From positions 1-50,105 of the IMG/VR virus record IMGVR_UViG_3300025687_000065: DNA of 50,105 nt, one strand, 5' to 3'. The notes under the pieces are model-generated. The model saw nothing but the letters and a program-made list of their open reading frames with translations. It was not told the DNA's origin and ran no database searches. The position numbers and the translations under genes are program-made. Shown in pieces: positions 14,358-39,191 of this stretch (within the stretch, counting starts at the first letter, position 1; each line of letters starts with the position of its first letter). This DNA is from a virus.

Positions 14358-15698
14358 TCATATAGATTTCTTAAGTTCCTCAAGATCTTTAATATACATA
14401 TCCTTAGGTTCAGTTCCTTCAATAACCTTAATCTCTGCTTCTTTTTCTGCCTTTTGATTTAACAATTCTTCAAACCTTTCTTTCGTTAATGAATAGATAG
14501 GCATACTTAATAAGTAATTAAATGATCCGTCAATTTGATCATATTTGTTCTTTTCAAGATACTCTACAATCTTTTGCTTAGGTACATTATTTATCTTAAG
14601 CTTACCTTCAATAATATCTTTAATAAATCTTGCTTTATTTGAAATAATAAGAAGCTCACGATTAAGCTTATCTAAAAGATAGGCTTTTCTCTTATCATAA
14701 TACCCTAAGCGAATACATACAAAATGTTTTACAATATCCTCAACACGATCAAAGATTTTAAGATTACCATTTTCATCAATTGTTGTAAGGTTTTCTGTTT
14801 CTTGTGTATGAATCTTTAATAGACCATCAAGCCTATCTTTTGAAATGTATTCTTTAAGTACTGCCCTCTGAAACTTAAGAATGTATTCAATCTTATCTGA
14901 TGAATTATCTTCATAATCAATAATAATTCTTCTTTCAACTAAGTTATTTAAATGGGCTTCATACTTTTCGTATGTAAAGGCAGGAGGTATTTCGGTTACC
15001 TTTACTGCTGTAGTATTTAAGACTTCGTATGATCCACTAATTTTCCAAGTTTTAGGATTGCCTGGATCTCTTTCAAACGTTCCGGTAAATTCACTTAACC
15101 ATGGAGGAAGAACCTTTATTCGCTTTTCCTTAAGAACAGCCAAACATGCATCTACCACATCTTTTGGATTTCGGTTAAGAATGTTAGTTGCAAAACCTAC
15201 AGCAATACCAGAAGATCCATTTAAAATTACAGTAGGAACAATAGGTAGAAAGAATTCAGGTTCAATCTGTTCACCTTCTTCTATCTTATTATTAAGTAAT
15301 TCAAAGTCCTGATAAATTAGTCTAAAGTTAGGATGCAATTTTGCACTAATGTAACGAGGAGCACCTGCAGATGGACTACGTAAAGATCCGTATTGACCAA
15401 TACCTTCTAAGAGAGGCATTGAGTTTTTAAACTTTTGACCCATACCAATCATTGAAGATTCTAATGAAGTATTACCATGATGATAATATGCCTCGGCTGC
15501 AACTCTACCTGCAAGTTGGAAAAGCTTCATAGGTTTTTCATTACCTCTTTTCCAAATTTTATTTGCTACATGTACAACCTTTCTCTGTGTTGGTTTAAGA
15601 CCGTCAATACAACTTGGGATAGCTCTGTTCTCTACAACATACTTAGCATACTCCAAATACTCTTTATCAAAAAATGATGTTACCGTTCTCTTATTCAT
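14358..15698 (-). CDS. DNA topoisomerase II medium subunit (gp52-like, ParC/GyrA fold)
   Basis: 446 residues. The breakage-reunion domain starts near residue 15 (RAIPSCIDGLKPTQRKVVH) with HHGNTSLESSMIGMGQKF and the active-site GAPRYISAKL, where Tyr116 next to Arg115 is the catalytic tyrosine. The C-terminal coiled coil (RLGYYDKRKAYLLDKL) is short and the GyrA beta-propeller is absent, as in T4 gp52. It pairs with the large subunit, whose stop codon overlaps its ATG, to form a type II topoisomerase for replication origin function. Confidence 0.93.
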   Translation of the reverse strand: MNKRTVTSFFDKEYLEYAKYVVENRAIPSCIDGLKPTQRKVVHVANKIWKRGNEKPMKLFQLAGRVAAEAYYHHGNTSLESSMIGMGQKFKNSMPLLEGIGQYGSLRSPSAGAPRYISAKLHPNFRLIYQDFELLNNKIEEGEQIEPEFFLPIVPTVILNGSSGIAVGFATNILNRNPKDVVDACLAVLKEKRIKVLPPWLSEFTGTFERDPGNPKTWKISGSYEVLNTTAVKVTEIPPAFTYEKYEAHLNNLVERRIIIDYEDNSSDKIEYILKFQRAVLKEYISKDRLDGLLKIHTQETENLTTIDENGNLKIFDRVEDIVKHFVCIRLGYYDKRKAYLLDKLNRELLIISNKARFIKDIIEGKLKINNVPKQKIVEYLEKNKYDQIDGSFNYLLSMPIYSLTKERFEELLNQKAEKEAEIKVIEGTEPKDMYIKDLEELKKSI

Positions 15699-17575
15699 TA
15701 AAATAATGATTTGTTATTTGTTTTTAATTCTACAGACTCTCCTAAAATCTTTTTCTTCCGAGGGCTAGAGTCACCTGAAAACCAGATTTTTAAAGTGGAG
15801 TTAAAACCATTATCTCTGGTAAGAATGTATGACTGGGGGCTTCTAATGATCTCTCGATATTCATCGTCTTCCAATGCAGCCAAACCTTTCTTGTATTCAA
15901 TATTCCAAGCAGATAGGTTTTTCTGTTTCTTTTCCCATTCCTTATACTCTTCATCAGAATAGAAACTTAAAGTTTGATTACCTTTCTTAGCAACCATAAG
16001 AGGTGTTTCTACTTTTAAGATTCTTCCTTCTTCAAAAAGCTCTGGCCAATATTTACCAAAGAAGTTTATAAGAAGGGCCGAGATTGAATTACCATCAACA
16101 TCAGCATCAGTATAAAATAAAATCTTACCGTATCTTAAATCCTTTGGCTCATGACCAATCTTAAGTCCTATTGCAGCCATAAGAGATTGTACTTCTTTAT
16201 TTTGTACAACCTTAGTATCAGGAATTTCACTTACATTAATGAACTTACCTCTTAGTGGAAATGCCCCTTGCATTTGTGGTTCACGGTACCTCCTAAACGC
16301 AGAAGAAGCAGAATCACCTTCAAATATTGCAAGAGTACATTTTTCTCTATTCCCTTTTGTCTTGGCATCAATAAGTTTAAGAACCTTTGACTTATCAAGA
16401 TTATTATTTAACTTACGAAGTTTTGCCCTTTCCTCAGCTGCCTTTTTCCGTTCAATCCAATCTAGGACAGATTGAATAATTTCAGAACCAAAGATTTGCT
16501 TTAAGATCTTATCAGAAAGTTCGTGAATGCTTCCGAAGTCTTTAGGTTCAGTAATAAGCTTTTCTTTAGTTTGAGAAGAGAAGGCAGGATTAATGACCGT
16601 ACAATTAATAAAAAGATACAGATGTTGCCTAAGCTCTGATGGCTTAACGTCTACACGATACTTCTTTTTGATTCTCTCCCTTAGGTCCTGTGTAATTTGC
16701 CATGTAATGTTATTAACATGGGTACCGCCGTCCTTTGTTTCAACAGAGTTAACAAACGAGATTGCCTTAAATCCATTTTCTGAATGACCAATTCCAATTT
16801 GCCAATTTTCAGATTGTTCATAAAAAACTGGAGTGGTATAAAGTTCAGAATATTCCTTAAATGATTTAAATGAAATAGGTTCATCATTTAACCAAATCTT
16901 TAGTTTAGGATTACATGCAGCAATATCATATAACCTCTTCTCCATCATCTGTAAAGATGGCTTATCAATCTTTTTCATACCAAATCTTTCAAAATCTGGT
17001 ACATAAGAAATTTCAGTAAAGCCTCGTTTTGAAGATACTACTTTAGGTTTAGTTTTATCTGCCATGTTATTTGAAAAGGTCTGTGTAAACCTTTTCTTAC
17101 CATCACATGTATCAATTACAAATTCTTTACTAAAAATATTGGTAAGTGTACTACCTACACCGTTTGTACCTACAACAGTTCTCTGTTCGGTATCATCAAA
17201 GTTACTTCCTGTCTTAAGGTTACTGAATATCATTTCAGGAACCCACTCATTATACTCCTTATGAATTTCAACAGGAATACCGCCGTTATCCCATATTGAT
17301 ATTTTATTTGTATCTAGGTCAACAGTTACTTTAATCTGATTAAGCTTAGAATTTCTTTTATGCTCGTCCACAGAATTGGAAACGATCTCATCAAAGAGTT
17401 TTAAGAAACCTGGGTTATAAGTAACCTCTTTAGGTACCAATTTCCAACTTCTACGATCTAAGAGATAAACTTCCTCGGTATGAGGCTTAACAGAACCGAT
17501 GTACATCCCTGGTCTTAGTAGTACATGTTCAGTGTCGGTAAGCTTTTGATATCTCTTCTCTATGTTTACTGCCAT
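15698..17575 (-). CDS. DNA topoisomerase II large subunit (gp39/gp60-like)
   Basis: 625 residues: GHKL ATPase (FDEIVSNSVDEH near 62-72, IWDNGGIPVE, GTNGVGSTLTN near 140), transducer domain, and TOPRIM with FEGDSASSAF and TDADVDGNSI. In T4 this is split into gp39 and gp60, with a 50-nucleotide bypass in gene 60; here ATPase and TOPRIM are in one uninterrupted frame. It makes topoisomerase II with the medium subunit, overlapping it by one base. A late-like box (17585-17596) precedes it. Confidence 0.93.
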   Translation of the reverse strand: MAVNIEKRYQKLTDTEHVLLRPGMYIGSVKPHTEEVYLLDRRSWKLVPKEVTYNPGFLKLFDEIVSNSVDEHKRNSKLNQIKVTVDLDTNKISIWDNGGIPVEIHKEYNEWVPEMIFSNLKTGSNFDDTEQRTVVGTNGVGSTLTNIFSKEFVIDTCDGKKRFTQTFSNNMADKTKPKVVSSKRGFTEISYVPDFERFGMKKIDKPSLQMMEKRLYDIAACNPKLKIWLNDEPISFKSFKEYSELYTTPVFYEQSENWQIGIGHSENGFKAISFVNSVETKDGGTHVNNITWQITQDLRERIKKKYRVDVKPSELRQHLYLFINCTVINPAFSSQTKEKLITEPKDFGSIHELSDKILKQIFGSEIIQSVLDWIERKKAAEERAKLRKLNNNLDKSKVLKLIDAKTKGNREKCTLAIFEGDSASSAFRRYREPQMQGAFPLRGKFINVSEIPDTKVVQNKEVQSLMAAIGLKIGHEPKDLRYGKILFYTDADVDGNSISALLINFFGKYWPELFEEGRILKVETPLMVAKKGNQTLSFYSDEEYKEWEKKQKNLSAWNIEYKKGLAALEDDEYREIIRSPQSYILTRDNGFNSTLKIWFSGDSSPRKKKILGESVELKTNNKSLF

Positions 17576-17610: not shown

Positions 17611-17829
17611 TTACTCGTCATTAAACTCATACCTAAGTTTAAGCCTAAGATAATTTACATATGAATGATAAAGATCAGGATGTTTCTTAGAGATGTGCTT
17701 CCATTTAGTTGCAAAGTTTTCTGTTAGGTTTTTTAACCCGTCATAGTGAATACAAGTATTCTTTTTGTTAGAGATAACCTTTTTTACCCAGTAAAAATCA
17801 GCTTTAATTTTCTCAAATAAATTTCCCAT
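17611..17829 (-). CDS. Small basic protein next to the tRNA gene
   Basis: I choose ATG at 17829 (MGNLFEKIKADFYWVKKV..., 72 residues), because a longer frame would extend into the tRNA gene. It is Lys-rich with aromatic residues (KADFYWVKKVISNKK, SYVNYLRLKLRYEFNDE) and is otherwise unrecognised. It starts 14 bases after the 3' end of the tRNA and may share its transcript with the tmRNA and topoisomerase. Confidence 0.65.
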   Translation of the reverse strand: MGNLFEKIKADFYWVKKVISNKKNTCIHYDGLKNLTENFATKWKHISKKHPDLYHSYVNYLRLKLRYEFNDE

Positions 17830-17843
17830 ACTATTTAATTTAG

Positions 17844-17918
17844 AGCCCCCTGTAGGAATCGAACCCACGACCTACTGAGTACAAATCAGTTGCTCTAAGC
17901 CATCTGAGCTAAGGGGGC
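17844..17918 (-). tRNA. tRNA-Thr, anticodon UGU
   Basis: Cloverleaf read on the minus strand: acceptor stem GCCCCCU / AGGGGGC, D-arm GCTC...GAGC, anticodon stem ACUGA/UCAGU with loop UUUGUAC (anticodon UGU), T-arm GUGGG UUCGAUU CCUAC, discriminator U. The CCA is not encoded. UGU reads ACA, the codon expected to be frequent in AT-rich genes. It lies 4 bases downstream of the tmRNA, so both are probably cut from one transcript. Confidence 0.95.
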
Positions 17919-17922
17919 ATAG

Positions 17923-18327
17923 TGGAGGTGGTGGGATTCGAACCCACGTCCAATAAGTTTCCATACCAGGCATTCTTACAGCTTATCCAGTTATTTGACT
18001 CTGGCAAACTTTTTGCCTTAAAGTTTTTGGACTGACGTTTTTAGCTTTGGTCAGCGAACCTACCACTAGAGCCGATCTTAATGGGTATTGGATTTCTCCT
18101 CAAGGTTTCTCGTGGTTTCGATAGAGGTACTATAAACCTTTTTTCCCTCAATTGCTTCCTTTAACACCTTATCTATCTACAAGCATACTCAATAGGATGG
18201 TGTGCGTTAGTGCCTAACTCTTAGGCTGCCATCGCAAGTTCAGTGTTGCCACTTACTTGTTTGATGTAGGTCATCACCCGTGCTGTACCTAATACTTCTA
18301 ACAAATTGTCAAAAGCCGGTCACCCCC
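17923..18327 (-). ncRNA. ssrA: tmRNA (SsrA), one-piece, phage-encoded
   Basis: 5' end GGGGGTGACCGGCTTTTGAC pairs with the 3' end CACCTCC(A): seven base pairs including the G3-U70 pair that alanyl-tRNA synthetase reads. The T-arm is GTGGG TTCGAAT CCCAC. CCA is not encoded. The resume segment (18250 to 18221, minus) reads G-N-T-E-L-A-M-A-A then TAA, so stalled proteins would get a tag ending MAA rather than the more usual ALAA. Length about 405 nt, close to bacterial tmRNAs. The RNA rescues stalled ribosomes with SmpB. A TATAAATA box (18350-18357) is about 22 bases upstream. Confidence 0.95.
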
Positions 18328-18361: not shown

Positions 18362-18664
18362 TTATGACTCCTTTAGTTTTTGTTGCCAATAAGCCATTTC
18401 TCTTTCTCTTTTAGCTTTACGCAGTTCCCACTCCCATTTTTCATAGAGTGTATATGAATACTTCCAACCACAGTCTTCATCATAATCGTCATCTTCGACT
18501 ACCACGATTGAAGGTCCCATGATTTCCTGGAGTACTCCAAGATCTACCGGTCTCCAATAACCAAATCGGAAATAGTTATGATTACCATCTCCCATAATAC
18601 GGCCAACTTCAAATTGACCAAATGCTTTTTCAACTTCTTTAAGTTTTGAGATATCCATTTTCAT
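18362..18664 (-). CDS. Small acidic protein of unknown function
   Basis: 100 residues; the ATG at 18664 overlaps the TGA of the gene upstream, with an alternative Met two codons later. It has an aspartate-rich stretch (VVVEDDDYDEDCGW) followed by a basic, helical C-terminus (EWELRKAKREREMAYWQQKL). It ends 35 bases before the tmRNA. No family recognised. Confidence 0.65.
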   Translation of the reverse strand: MKMDISKLKEVEKAFGQFEVGRIMGDGNHNYFRFGYWRPVDLGVLQEIMGPSIVVVEDDDYDEDCGWKYSYTLYEKWEWELRKAKREREMAYWQQKLKES

Positions 18665-19393: not shown

Positions 19394-20188
19394 TTAGAAT
19401 GGCATTTCAGGCTCAGCTTTCATCTTTTCCATAAGCTTACGAGCGATGATTTTGGTTTCCTTTGAGAATTCTCCTTTATCAATCATCCATTCAATATAAC
19501 GTGAATCTGCTTCATATACTTCACGGAAAGGTTTTCCACTCCATTTACCAAAGTTAAAGATAATTTCTTTCTTGCCATTAATTTCAGCAAACTTAAACTT
19601 ACCGCTTAGGTCAACTTGTGTTTGGCGAGATTCATTAACTACTTTATCAATTTCTTCAACTGTTTGTGGCATATCATAGAGTTCACGTTGAGCCTGGAAG
19701 ATTTCCATTGTTGCACGAATATCATTCTCTGCACGGTGTGCACCTTCTAAAGTCTTACCTGTGTATTTCGTATATGCCGTGCTTAAGTCTCTTCTTTCAT
19801 ATTTTGAGTAAATAAGGAAAGGATCAATAACAGCTCGGTTACGATGATTGAAAACGATACCGGCTCTCATAAGTTCTTCGGTAAGCATTGGGATATCGAA
19901 GTAAAGTGCATTATAGCCACCTAGATCACTATCACCAATGAAGTCAACAACTTCTTTTGCCATAGCCTCAAACCTATCTTGGTCTTCTAATAGATCTGGT
20001 GTAATTCCATGTTTATCAATCGCCTCTTGTCTCCATTCAACATTAGTACCTGGATTTACGAGGGAATAAAAAGATCCAATTTCATTTCCATCAAGATCGG
20101 TCTTTATCATACAGATCTCAATAATACGATCCGTTGCTGTGTTTACACCTGTAGTTTCTAAATCAAACCATACAATACTTTTAGCCAT
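19394..20188 (-). CDS. DnaQ-like 3'-5' exonuclease (DEDD family)
   Basis: 264 residues. The exonuclease I motif FDLETTG (Asp9, Glu11) opens the protein, motif II is GYNALYFDIPML, and motif III is HRAENDIRATMEIF, giving the DEDDh set. The first ~185 residues match the epsilon-like domain; the C-terminal part (SGKFKFAEINGKKEIIFNFGKWSGKPFREV) looks like the small domain often found after DnaQ exonucleases that act on RNA or DNA ends. It could proofread or trim DNA or RNA. It is separated from the tape-measure gene by an 80-base gap containing an ATATAAAA-type box. Confidence 0.88.
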   Translation of the reverse strand: MAKSIVWFDLETTGVNTATDRIIEICMIKTDLDGNEIGSFYSLVNPGTNVEWRQEAIDKHGITPDLLEDQDRFEAMAKEVVDFIGDSDLGGYNALYFDIPMLTEELMRAGIVFNHRNRAVIDPFLIYSKYERRDLSTAYTKYTGKTLEGAHRAENDIRATMEIFQAQRELYDMPQTVEEIDKVVNESRQTQVDLSGKFKFAEINGKKEIIFNFGKWSGKPFREVYEADSRYIEWMIDKGEFSKETKIIARKLMEKMKAEPEMPF

Positions 20189-38384: not shown

Positions 38385-39191
38385 ATGAGGAGGATTAGAA
38401 AGCTATCAGGAACCGATAAGAGAATACCTATCATAAAAGAAGAGAGGGCTGGGAATATTATTAGGTCAAAAGTCATAAATAAAAATGTAACAAAGGTTAC
38501 AGTTAACCCAAATAATATTCCTATTGTTACTAGGAATGAAGCTAGAGTAAATATGGAATCTCAGCATAATAAGAATATGTATAATGGAAAGGTTGATCCA
38601 ATATGGTCAGGTGAAACTGTATACATTATTGGCGGAGGTCCTAGTTTGGCCGGATTTAATTGGAAAGGTCTTGAAGGAAAAAAGACTATTGCAATTAATA
38701 AAGCATTAATTACATACCCTAATGCAGATGTTGTTTATTGGACTGATTCAAGAGTATATCGTTGGTACACTCAAGAAATTAATCGCTTTAAAGGATTAAA
38801 GTATACAATTAAAGGTAATGCTGGATATGCACCTGATGTTAAAGTACTAAAAAGAGGTGTTAAATTTGGTTTGGAAGAAGCAAGAGATAGATTGGCCCAT
38901 GGTAATAATAGTGGTTATGCTGCTATTAATTTAGCATATCTATTAGGAGCAAAAAGAATTATACTTTTAGGCTATGATATGAAAAATGATGGAATAAAAG
39001 GACATTATCATGATGGATATCCTGTTCCTATGACATCAGATAAAATATACAGAGATCAGTTTTTACCAGGATTTGAAATTTTAGCAGAAAAGTTAAAAGA
39101 GAAAAAAGTACAAGTATACAATGCATCTCCTATAAGTAACATCAAATGCTTTCCTAAGATTAATTATGAAAAAGCATTAACCTTTAGATGA
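38385..39191 (+). CDS. Rossmann-fold DUF115/MptE-like protein, only plus-strand gene
   Basis: 268 residues. After an 80-residue basic leader containing KVTVNPNNIPIVTRNE (shared with the gene at 1-187), the core begins ETVYIIGGGPSLAGF, a nucleotide-binding loop as in DUF115 and hydroxymethylpterin-diphosphokinase-like proteins, then KKTIAINKALITYPNADVVYWTD and HGNNSGYAAINLAYLLGAKRIILLGYDMK, typical of this family, which is often linked to surface sugars or motility glycans. It is in the opposite orientation to the head module, with its own promoter-like box, and its end overlaps the next gene's end by 15 bases. This is a moron-like insertion. Confidence 0.8.
   Translation: MRRIRKLSGTDKRIPIIKEERAGNIIRSKVINKNVTKVTVNPNNIPIVTRNEARVNMESQHNKNMYNGKVDPIWSGETVYIIGGGPSLAGFNWKGLEGKKTIAINKALITYPNADVVYWTDSRVYRWYTQEINRFKGLKYTIKGNAGYAPDVKVLKRGVKFGLEEARDRLAHGNNSGYAAINLAYLLGAKRIILLGYDMKNDGIKGHYHDGYPVPMTSDKIYRDQFLPGFEILAEKLKEKKVQVYNASPISNIKCFPKINYEKALTFR

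Follow-up and report, generated by a model that had tools for sequence, protein, structure and literature searches.

The 50.1-kb virus record IMGVR_UViG_3300025687_000065, probably a fragment and analyzed here over its whole length of 50,105 nucleotides (hereafter, the window), carries a genuine one-piece tmRNA gene, which very likely belongs to an uncultured T4-like lineage of Bacteroidota phages and stays with tRNAs in a fixed slot as a component of a translation-support cassette. ARAGORN called a one-piece tmRNA (ssrA) gene with the tag GNTELAMAA on the minus strand at 17922-18327, and the Rfam model RF00023 matched this gene from end to end (1-374 of 374) with 84.4 bits (cut-off 47, E 2e-31), a call joined by covariation in an alignment of 17 sequences. 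An initial annotation of the window had read a complete one-piece tmRNA from the sequence without naming the strand, which is minus, and had proposed a covariance search in which a score below the threshold would count against it; the score obtained lies above the cut-off, so this objection falls away, and the parts that it had named are all present. The 5' strand of the acceptor stem, GGGGGUG with G3 (18321-18327), pairs with the 3' strand, CACCUCC with U70 (17924-17930), and the G3-U70 pair is a G-U in 17/17 aligned sequences. The RNA ends at the discriminator A (17923) and the next letters are CUA, meaning that CCA is not encoded in this gene; it is encoded by the tmRNAs of some relatives (L049, L050 and L115). 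In the T stem, 100% of the cells are paired, with 2 compensated pairs. The tag frame (18221-18250, minus strand; ARAGORN coding part 78-107) reads GGC AAC ACU GAA CUU GCG AUG GCA GCC UAA, is kept in relatives, and ends in a stop after a C-terminus of hydrophobic and small residues, as expected of a tmRNA. A tRNA-Thr(UGU) gene (17843-17918; ARAGORN, Rfam tRNA 65.9 bits) follows on the same strand 3 nt downstream, and the two genes form one unit, as had been proposed.

To analyze the RNA structure, we counted pairs in an alignment of 17 family sequences, including the GNTELAMAA tmRNA, for the structure written from the 17922-18327 sequence. Across the 17 sequences, 91.2% of the cells are paired, and pairing falls to 37-47% when the partners are slid. 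Cells changed on both sides number 59 (17 expected in shuffles) and pairs changed on both sides number 20 (9.5 in shuffles). P2 is compensated, as are both stems of pseudoknot PK2 (18153-18203, helices 8-11) and of PK3 (18102-18149, helices 11 and 12), the latter in 5 long sequences. In PK4 (18031-18073, helices 13 and 14), the stem GCUGAC/GUCAGU is invariant in 5 sequences and therefore carries no covariation information for or against the pseudoknot, and the other stem is weak. PK1 is represented by a reduced element, GGG-U-GAUG-A-CCU-A-CAUC (18263-18279, all on the minus strand), a putative pseudoknot of two 3-4-bp stems with loops of 0-2 nt, which are kept in relatives with few changes. 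Pairing of the pseudoknots, which had been set as a second check, was thus borne out for PK2 and PK3 and is present in PK4, but PK1 is reduced. PK3 and PK4 are confined to long family members, and covariation there comes from 5 sequences; shorter members (326-372 nt) do not have the PK3-PK4 block as it occurs in 17922-18327, and their 3' part differs. The GNTELAMAA tmRNA has extra hairpins between PK4 and P2.

The window encodes a T4-like gene set comprising a gp23-type capsid protein, head protease, terminase, clamp loader, both topoisomerase II genes, and a dexA-like exonuclease. These head, packaging, and replication genes agree with the earlier assignment to a T4-like phage. The closest relatives of several genes are those of huge uncultured phages, chiefly LR756500 (462 kb; capsid 58.8%, terminase 50.1%). 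The tmRNA slot is flanked, on the basis of synteny, by an exonuclease gene (19394-20188, minus strand; RNase_T fold, dexA/DNA polymerase exonuclease-like, PF00929 and phrog_192) and by the gene for the DNA topoisomerase II large subunit (15698-17575, minus strand; tblastn matches to topoisomerase II large subunits annotated in phages). A small gene of 100 amino acids (18362-18664, minus strand) with homologues in relatives and with no family match in Pfam or PHROG lies immediately upstream of the slot. Its homologues precede both of the tmRNA types described below by 38-130 nt (38 nt at the GNTELAMAA tmRNA). We considered it as a tmRNA-linked protein and rejected this, since relatives that lack a tmRNA also have the gene, and in others it lies at a distance of 3.6-4.3 kb. 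Another small gene (17611-17829, minus strand), located between tRNA-Thr and the topoisomerase gene, has matches in relatives, which mostly begin around residue 21 of the longer frame; its conserved part starts close to the internal ATG at 17829 and not at the GTG overlapping the tRNA. Scanning for sigma-70 promoters and searching for exact copies of a Bacteroidota-like -7 motif gave nothing usable near the tmRNA gene. Elsewhere in the window, whose gene set otherwise lies on the minus strand, the longest ORF of the plus strand (38385-39191) has a weak MptE-like Pfam match below the family cut-off.

The host of this phage is likely a member of the Bacteroidota, as judged from the absence of Shine-Dalgarno sites and from capsid and terminase kinship. 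Bacteroidetes mRNAs are without Shine-Dalgarno sites (PMC6847099), and the motif was found at 3/51 genes of the window (2.9 expected); in the controls it was found, as expected of them, at 34/50 genes of T4 (8.5 expected) and at 1/46 genes of Tenacibaculum phage PTm1 (1.5 expected). An A occurs at -13 in 41/51 genes of the window. Full-length capsid matches were obtained with Prevotella, Tenacibaculum, Flavobacterium, and Chryseobacterium phages, with huge uncultured phages, and with phage PAU, whose recorded host is Sphingomonas. A Bdellovibrionota host was also considered because the tags GNNEFAMAA and DNSELAMAA occur there; the absent Shine-Dalgarno sites and the capsid kinship speak for Bacteroidota instead.

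The initial annotation had called the tag atypical for ending in AMAA. We analyzed the tags in a sample of 60 Bacteroidota genomes that was drawn evenly except for the seed genome (GNTEFAMAA), which was chosen for its tag. AMAA was the commonest end (31 of 60), followed by ALAA (19), RLAA (5), and RMAA (2), and the tags GNTQYAMAA and GNTEFAMAA of this sample share the GNT[EQ]-AMAA scaffold with GNTELAMAA. Hence, an AMAA end is nothing unusual in the likely host phylum, and the Met is expected from that phylum rather than from phage innovation; calling such a tag atypical by the E. coli yardstick is misleading. The exact GNTELAMAA tag was not seen among the bacterial matches of an E[LF]AMAA scan or in the 60 Bacteroidota genomes. 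The pattern E[LF]AMAA was found in 98 stretches of viral contigs, most of which are tmRNAs, and in 102 stretches from 84,980 genomes of bacteria and archaea, with approximately 34 of these stretches being tmRNAs from several phyla. Such counts by pattern are biased, since the ELAMAA scans select by tag. Among viral tmRNAs sampled blind to the tag, 10 of the 116 called end in AMAA and 54 in ALAA; this sample omits loci fetched earlier, and AMAA is therefore understated in it. Two-piece phage tmRNAs with the tag GEQVELAMAA occur on many viral contigs (L075-L170), showing the AMAA end in an unrelated tmRNA class.

To analyze the distribution of the gene, we compared 51 IMG/VR loci that encode relatives of the topoisomerase. 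The tmRNA-bearing loci, in relatives of 71-93% topoisomerase identity, have the gene in the same slot, with the exonuclease gene on one side and the topoisomerase II genes on the other, and the tags of this family are GNTELAMAA, DNAELAMAA, DNAEFAMAA, GNAELAIAA, GNTSYAMAA, GNAEYAMAA, and DKAEYAMAA. The tag amino acids are conserved to a modest degree, with a pN/pS of 0.51 for the 9 distinct tag sequences, in a region that is also structured. Loci with tmRNA nearly always have tRNAs and loci without tmRNA have none, with few exceptions. Searching 32 related contigs over their whole length, which are fragments, gave no tmRNA on 23 of them; the gene is therefore probably not essential. Altogether, the tmRNA gene is accessory but established in an uncultured T4-like lineage, which keeps it with tRNAs in a fixed slot, and many relatives have lost it. 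In a tmRNA tree, the family is grouped at a support of 99 and stands weakly near one Bacteroidota clade (fork support 81, drawn open), a weak placement for a Bacteroidota origin of the gene.

Sister phages have arrays of about 22 tRNAs directly after the tmRNA (L023:1340-4718 and L045:858-4716), compared with the single tRNA-Thr of the window. At L276:6434-6879 (minus strand), a tmRNA with the tag GVAEQVEDLALVA is 76.7% identical to the 3' half (positions 178-406) of the GNTELAMAA gene and differs in its 5' part, making it a mosaic; its contig has Shine-Dalgarno sites at 3/7 ORFs and a higher G+C, so tmRNA exchange may have crossed host groups. Two tmRNAs missed by ARAGORN score above the Rfam cut-off, at L008:1501-1857 (LR756504, 65.2 bits) and at L452:1501-1908 (G009, 57 bits), and the frame of the latter appears to end in ...QVALAA. 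Vibrio phages Va1, pv27, and qdvp001 (L611, L612, and L613, near 1501-1576) gave 75-82% blastn matches to the PK3 region, which lie inside tRNA arrays in 2 of the 3; unannotated tmRNAs were considered there, and none was called by Rfam or ARAGORN.

In one subclade of sister phages, the tmRNA has been replaced in place by an unrelated one. The slot of L023-L030 and L067 holds a different tmRNA with the tag GEEKSSFTWEDAM[SA]F[IV]GADYAVAA, located 44-56 nt downstream of the same small gene, and in the tmRNA tree each of the two types forms a group of its own. L045 retains the GNTELAMAA type with the tRNA array in the same order as at the long-tag loci. The presence of the GNTELAMAA type in L045, L047, and more distant relatives would most simply make it the older resident of the slot. 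The long-tag family comprises 78 IMG/VR stretches (L023-L030, L067, and L467-L541), and its tag of 24 residues, [ADG]xE[LKI]S[ST][FMW]T[FW]EDAM[AS]F[VI]GADYA[VLI]AA, is conserved (pN/pS 0.27 over 32 distinct tag sequences). The motif was not found in 395 Bacteroidota genomes and was seen in phages only, and its carriers show little Shine-Dalgarno excess (19/314 ORFs, 13 expected). This apparently phage-only tag is a more unusual thing than the GNTELAMAA tag. For Bacteroidota phages, the tmRNA tag might be a module that can be swapped within one slot, either host-like and short or phage-only ([ADG]xELSSFTFEDAMAFVGADYAVAA), with the long tag acting beyond ClpXP marking, for example through another protease or a host factor, an idea that we put forward as a rather improbable speculation. 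The swap of a short tag for a long conserved one constitutes a natural experiment on the tag's own contribution during infection.

The most likely role of the GNTELAMAA tmRNA is host-type ribosome rescue during infection through host SmpB and proteases. It would be transcribed jointly with the upstream genes and tRNA-Thr, host RNase P would cut it from tRNA-Thr in the joint precursor, and host enzymes would add CCA. Host alanyl-tRNA synthetase could then charge it through G3-U70, and host SmpB would deliver it to ribosomes stalled on broken mRNA, where the tag (A)GNTELAMAA, of the Bacteroidota kind, would direct the product to host ClpXP-type proteases. Searches of the lineage contigs, among them 181 kb of the L098 contig, and of all of LR756500 gave no SmpB gene, so host SmpB would have to serve; phages of 634-735 kb do encode SmpB. 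The initial annotation had suggested that the tmRNA keeps late translation going when host mRNA is being destroyed. Support of translation during infection is indeed its most plausible use. When T4 infects E. coli, host mRNA is destroyed but the tmRNA of the host remains stable (PMC9697503), and hence mRNA decay alone does not explain why a phage would need a copy of its own. The phage would probably gain extra rescue capacity while mRNA is cut, which the linkage to tRNAs fits.

Three other readings of the gene were weighed against host-type rescue. The AMAA end could be a phage-specific change in protease recognition through which proteins with the tag escape proteolysis or are handed to a different protease, as the initial annotation had raised. 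In E. coli, the ALAA end of the tag binds the ClpX pore and AANDENY binds SspB (PMC8512704), and AMAA is retained in most of the phage tmRNA family; however, the same end predominates in the Bacteroidota sample, and E[LF]AMAA tags occur in bacterial tmRNAs of several phyla. Such a change is neither needed nor supported, and we regard it as very improbable. It is somewhat easier to imagine, though still improbable, that the tmRNA is a captured passenger that is kept or lost with the tRNA cassette and brings little or no benefit of its own, given that its presence tracks that of tRNAs and that it is absent from most of the contigs searched. Against this, the helices are held by compensatory changes over deep divergence, the slot, tag length, and G3-U70 are all kept, and in L023-L030 the gene was replaced by another tmRNA and not merely lost. 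Lastly, the RNA could be a decoy, titrating SmpB of the host and thereby inhibiting its trans-translation, a role that has been proposed for the TLD-only tmRNA of mycobacteriophage DS6A. This would agree with the inhibition of tmRNA by TLD-like molecules (PMC4131195) and with the lack of SmpB on the known phage contigs, but a decoy would have no need of the tag frame, stop codon, and pseudoknots, all of which are kept, and we give this reading hardly any credence.

A tmRNA in a T4-like phage had been presented as unusual, a view that the literature does not uphold, as phage tmRNAs, including those of T4-like phages, have been published (PMC9004378, PMC7162821, PMC8776804). They were reported in 402 of 18,146 phage genomes (PMC9004378), in flavobacterial podovirus Calle (PMC8776804), and in mycobacteriophages and phage G (PMC4131195), and T4-like viruses of Bacteroidetes have been described as well (PMC7198788). 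In the literature searched, covered in part, we found no description of the GNTELAMAA lineage or its slot. What is new here is local, namely the lineage, the slot, and the in-place replacement, phage tmRNA itself being already known. The tag tails of the tmRNAs of mycobacteriophages (Bxz1 and its relatives) are unlike GNTELAMAA. These phages likewise carry a tmRNA gene, but their hosts belong to another phylum (PMC4131195). Methylophage Melnitz, a myophage whose genes for replication and transcription are T4-like, and Pelagibacter phage Mosig share with the lineage a marine phage tmRNA (PMC9004378); however, the Melnitz tmRNA is two-piece, permuted, of the alphaproteobacterial kind, and accompanied by a glutamine riboswitch, whereas the GNTELAMAA tmRNA is one-piece and Bacteroidota-like. 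Huge phages, some of which carry tmRNA and SmpB (PMC7162821), provide the closest relatives of several genes of the window, and the tmRNA tag of LR756500 is GNNAEMRMAA; SmpB is found in the 634-735 kb ones, in contrast to the GNTELAMAA lineage, where none was found. With the Bacteroidota-type bacterial tmRNA (RF00023), the GNTELAMAA tmRNA shares the full model match, G3-U70, T-arm, tag frame, PK2-PK4, tag scaffold, and AMAA end, and it differs in being phage-borne, in its reduced PK1, in the extra hairpins between PK4 and P2, and in an exact tag that was not seen among the bacterial matches. Thus, T4-like phages of Bacteroidota can have a tmRNA gene as an established component linked to tRNAs, and its tag can be of the type used in the host phylum.
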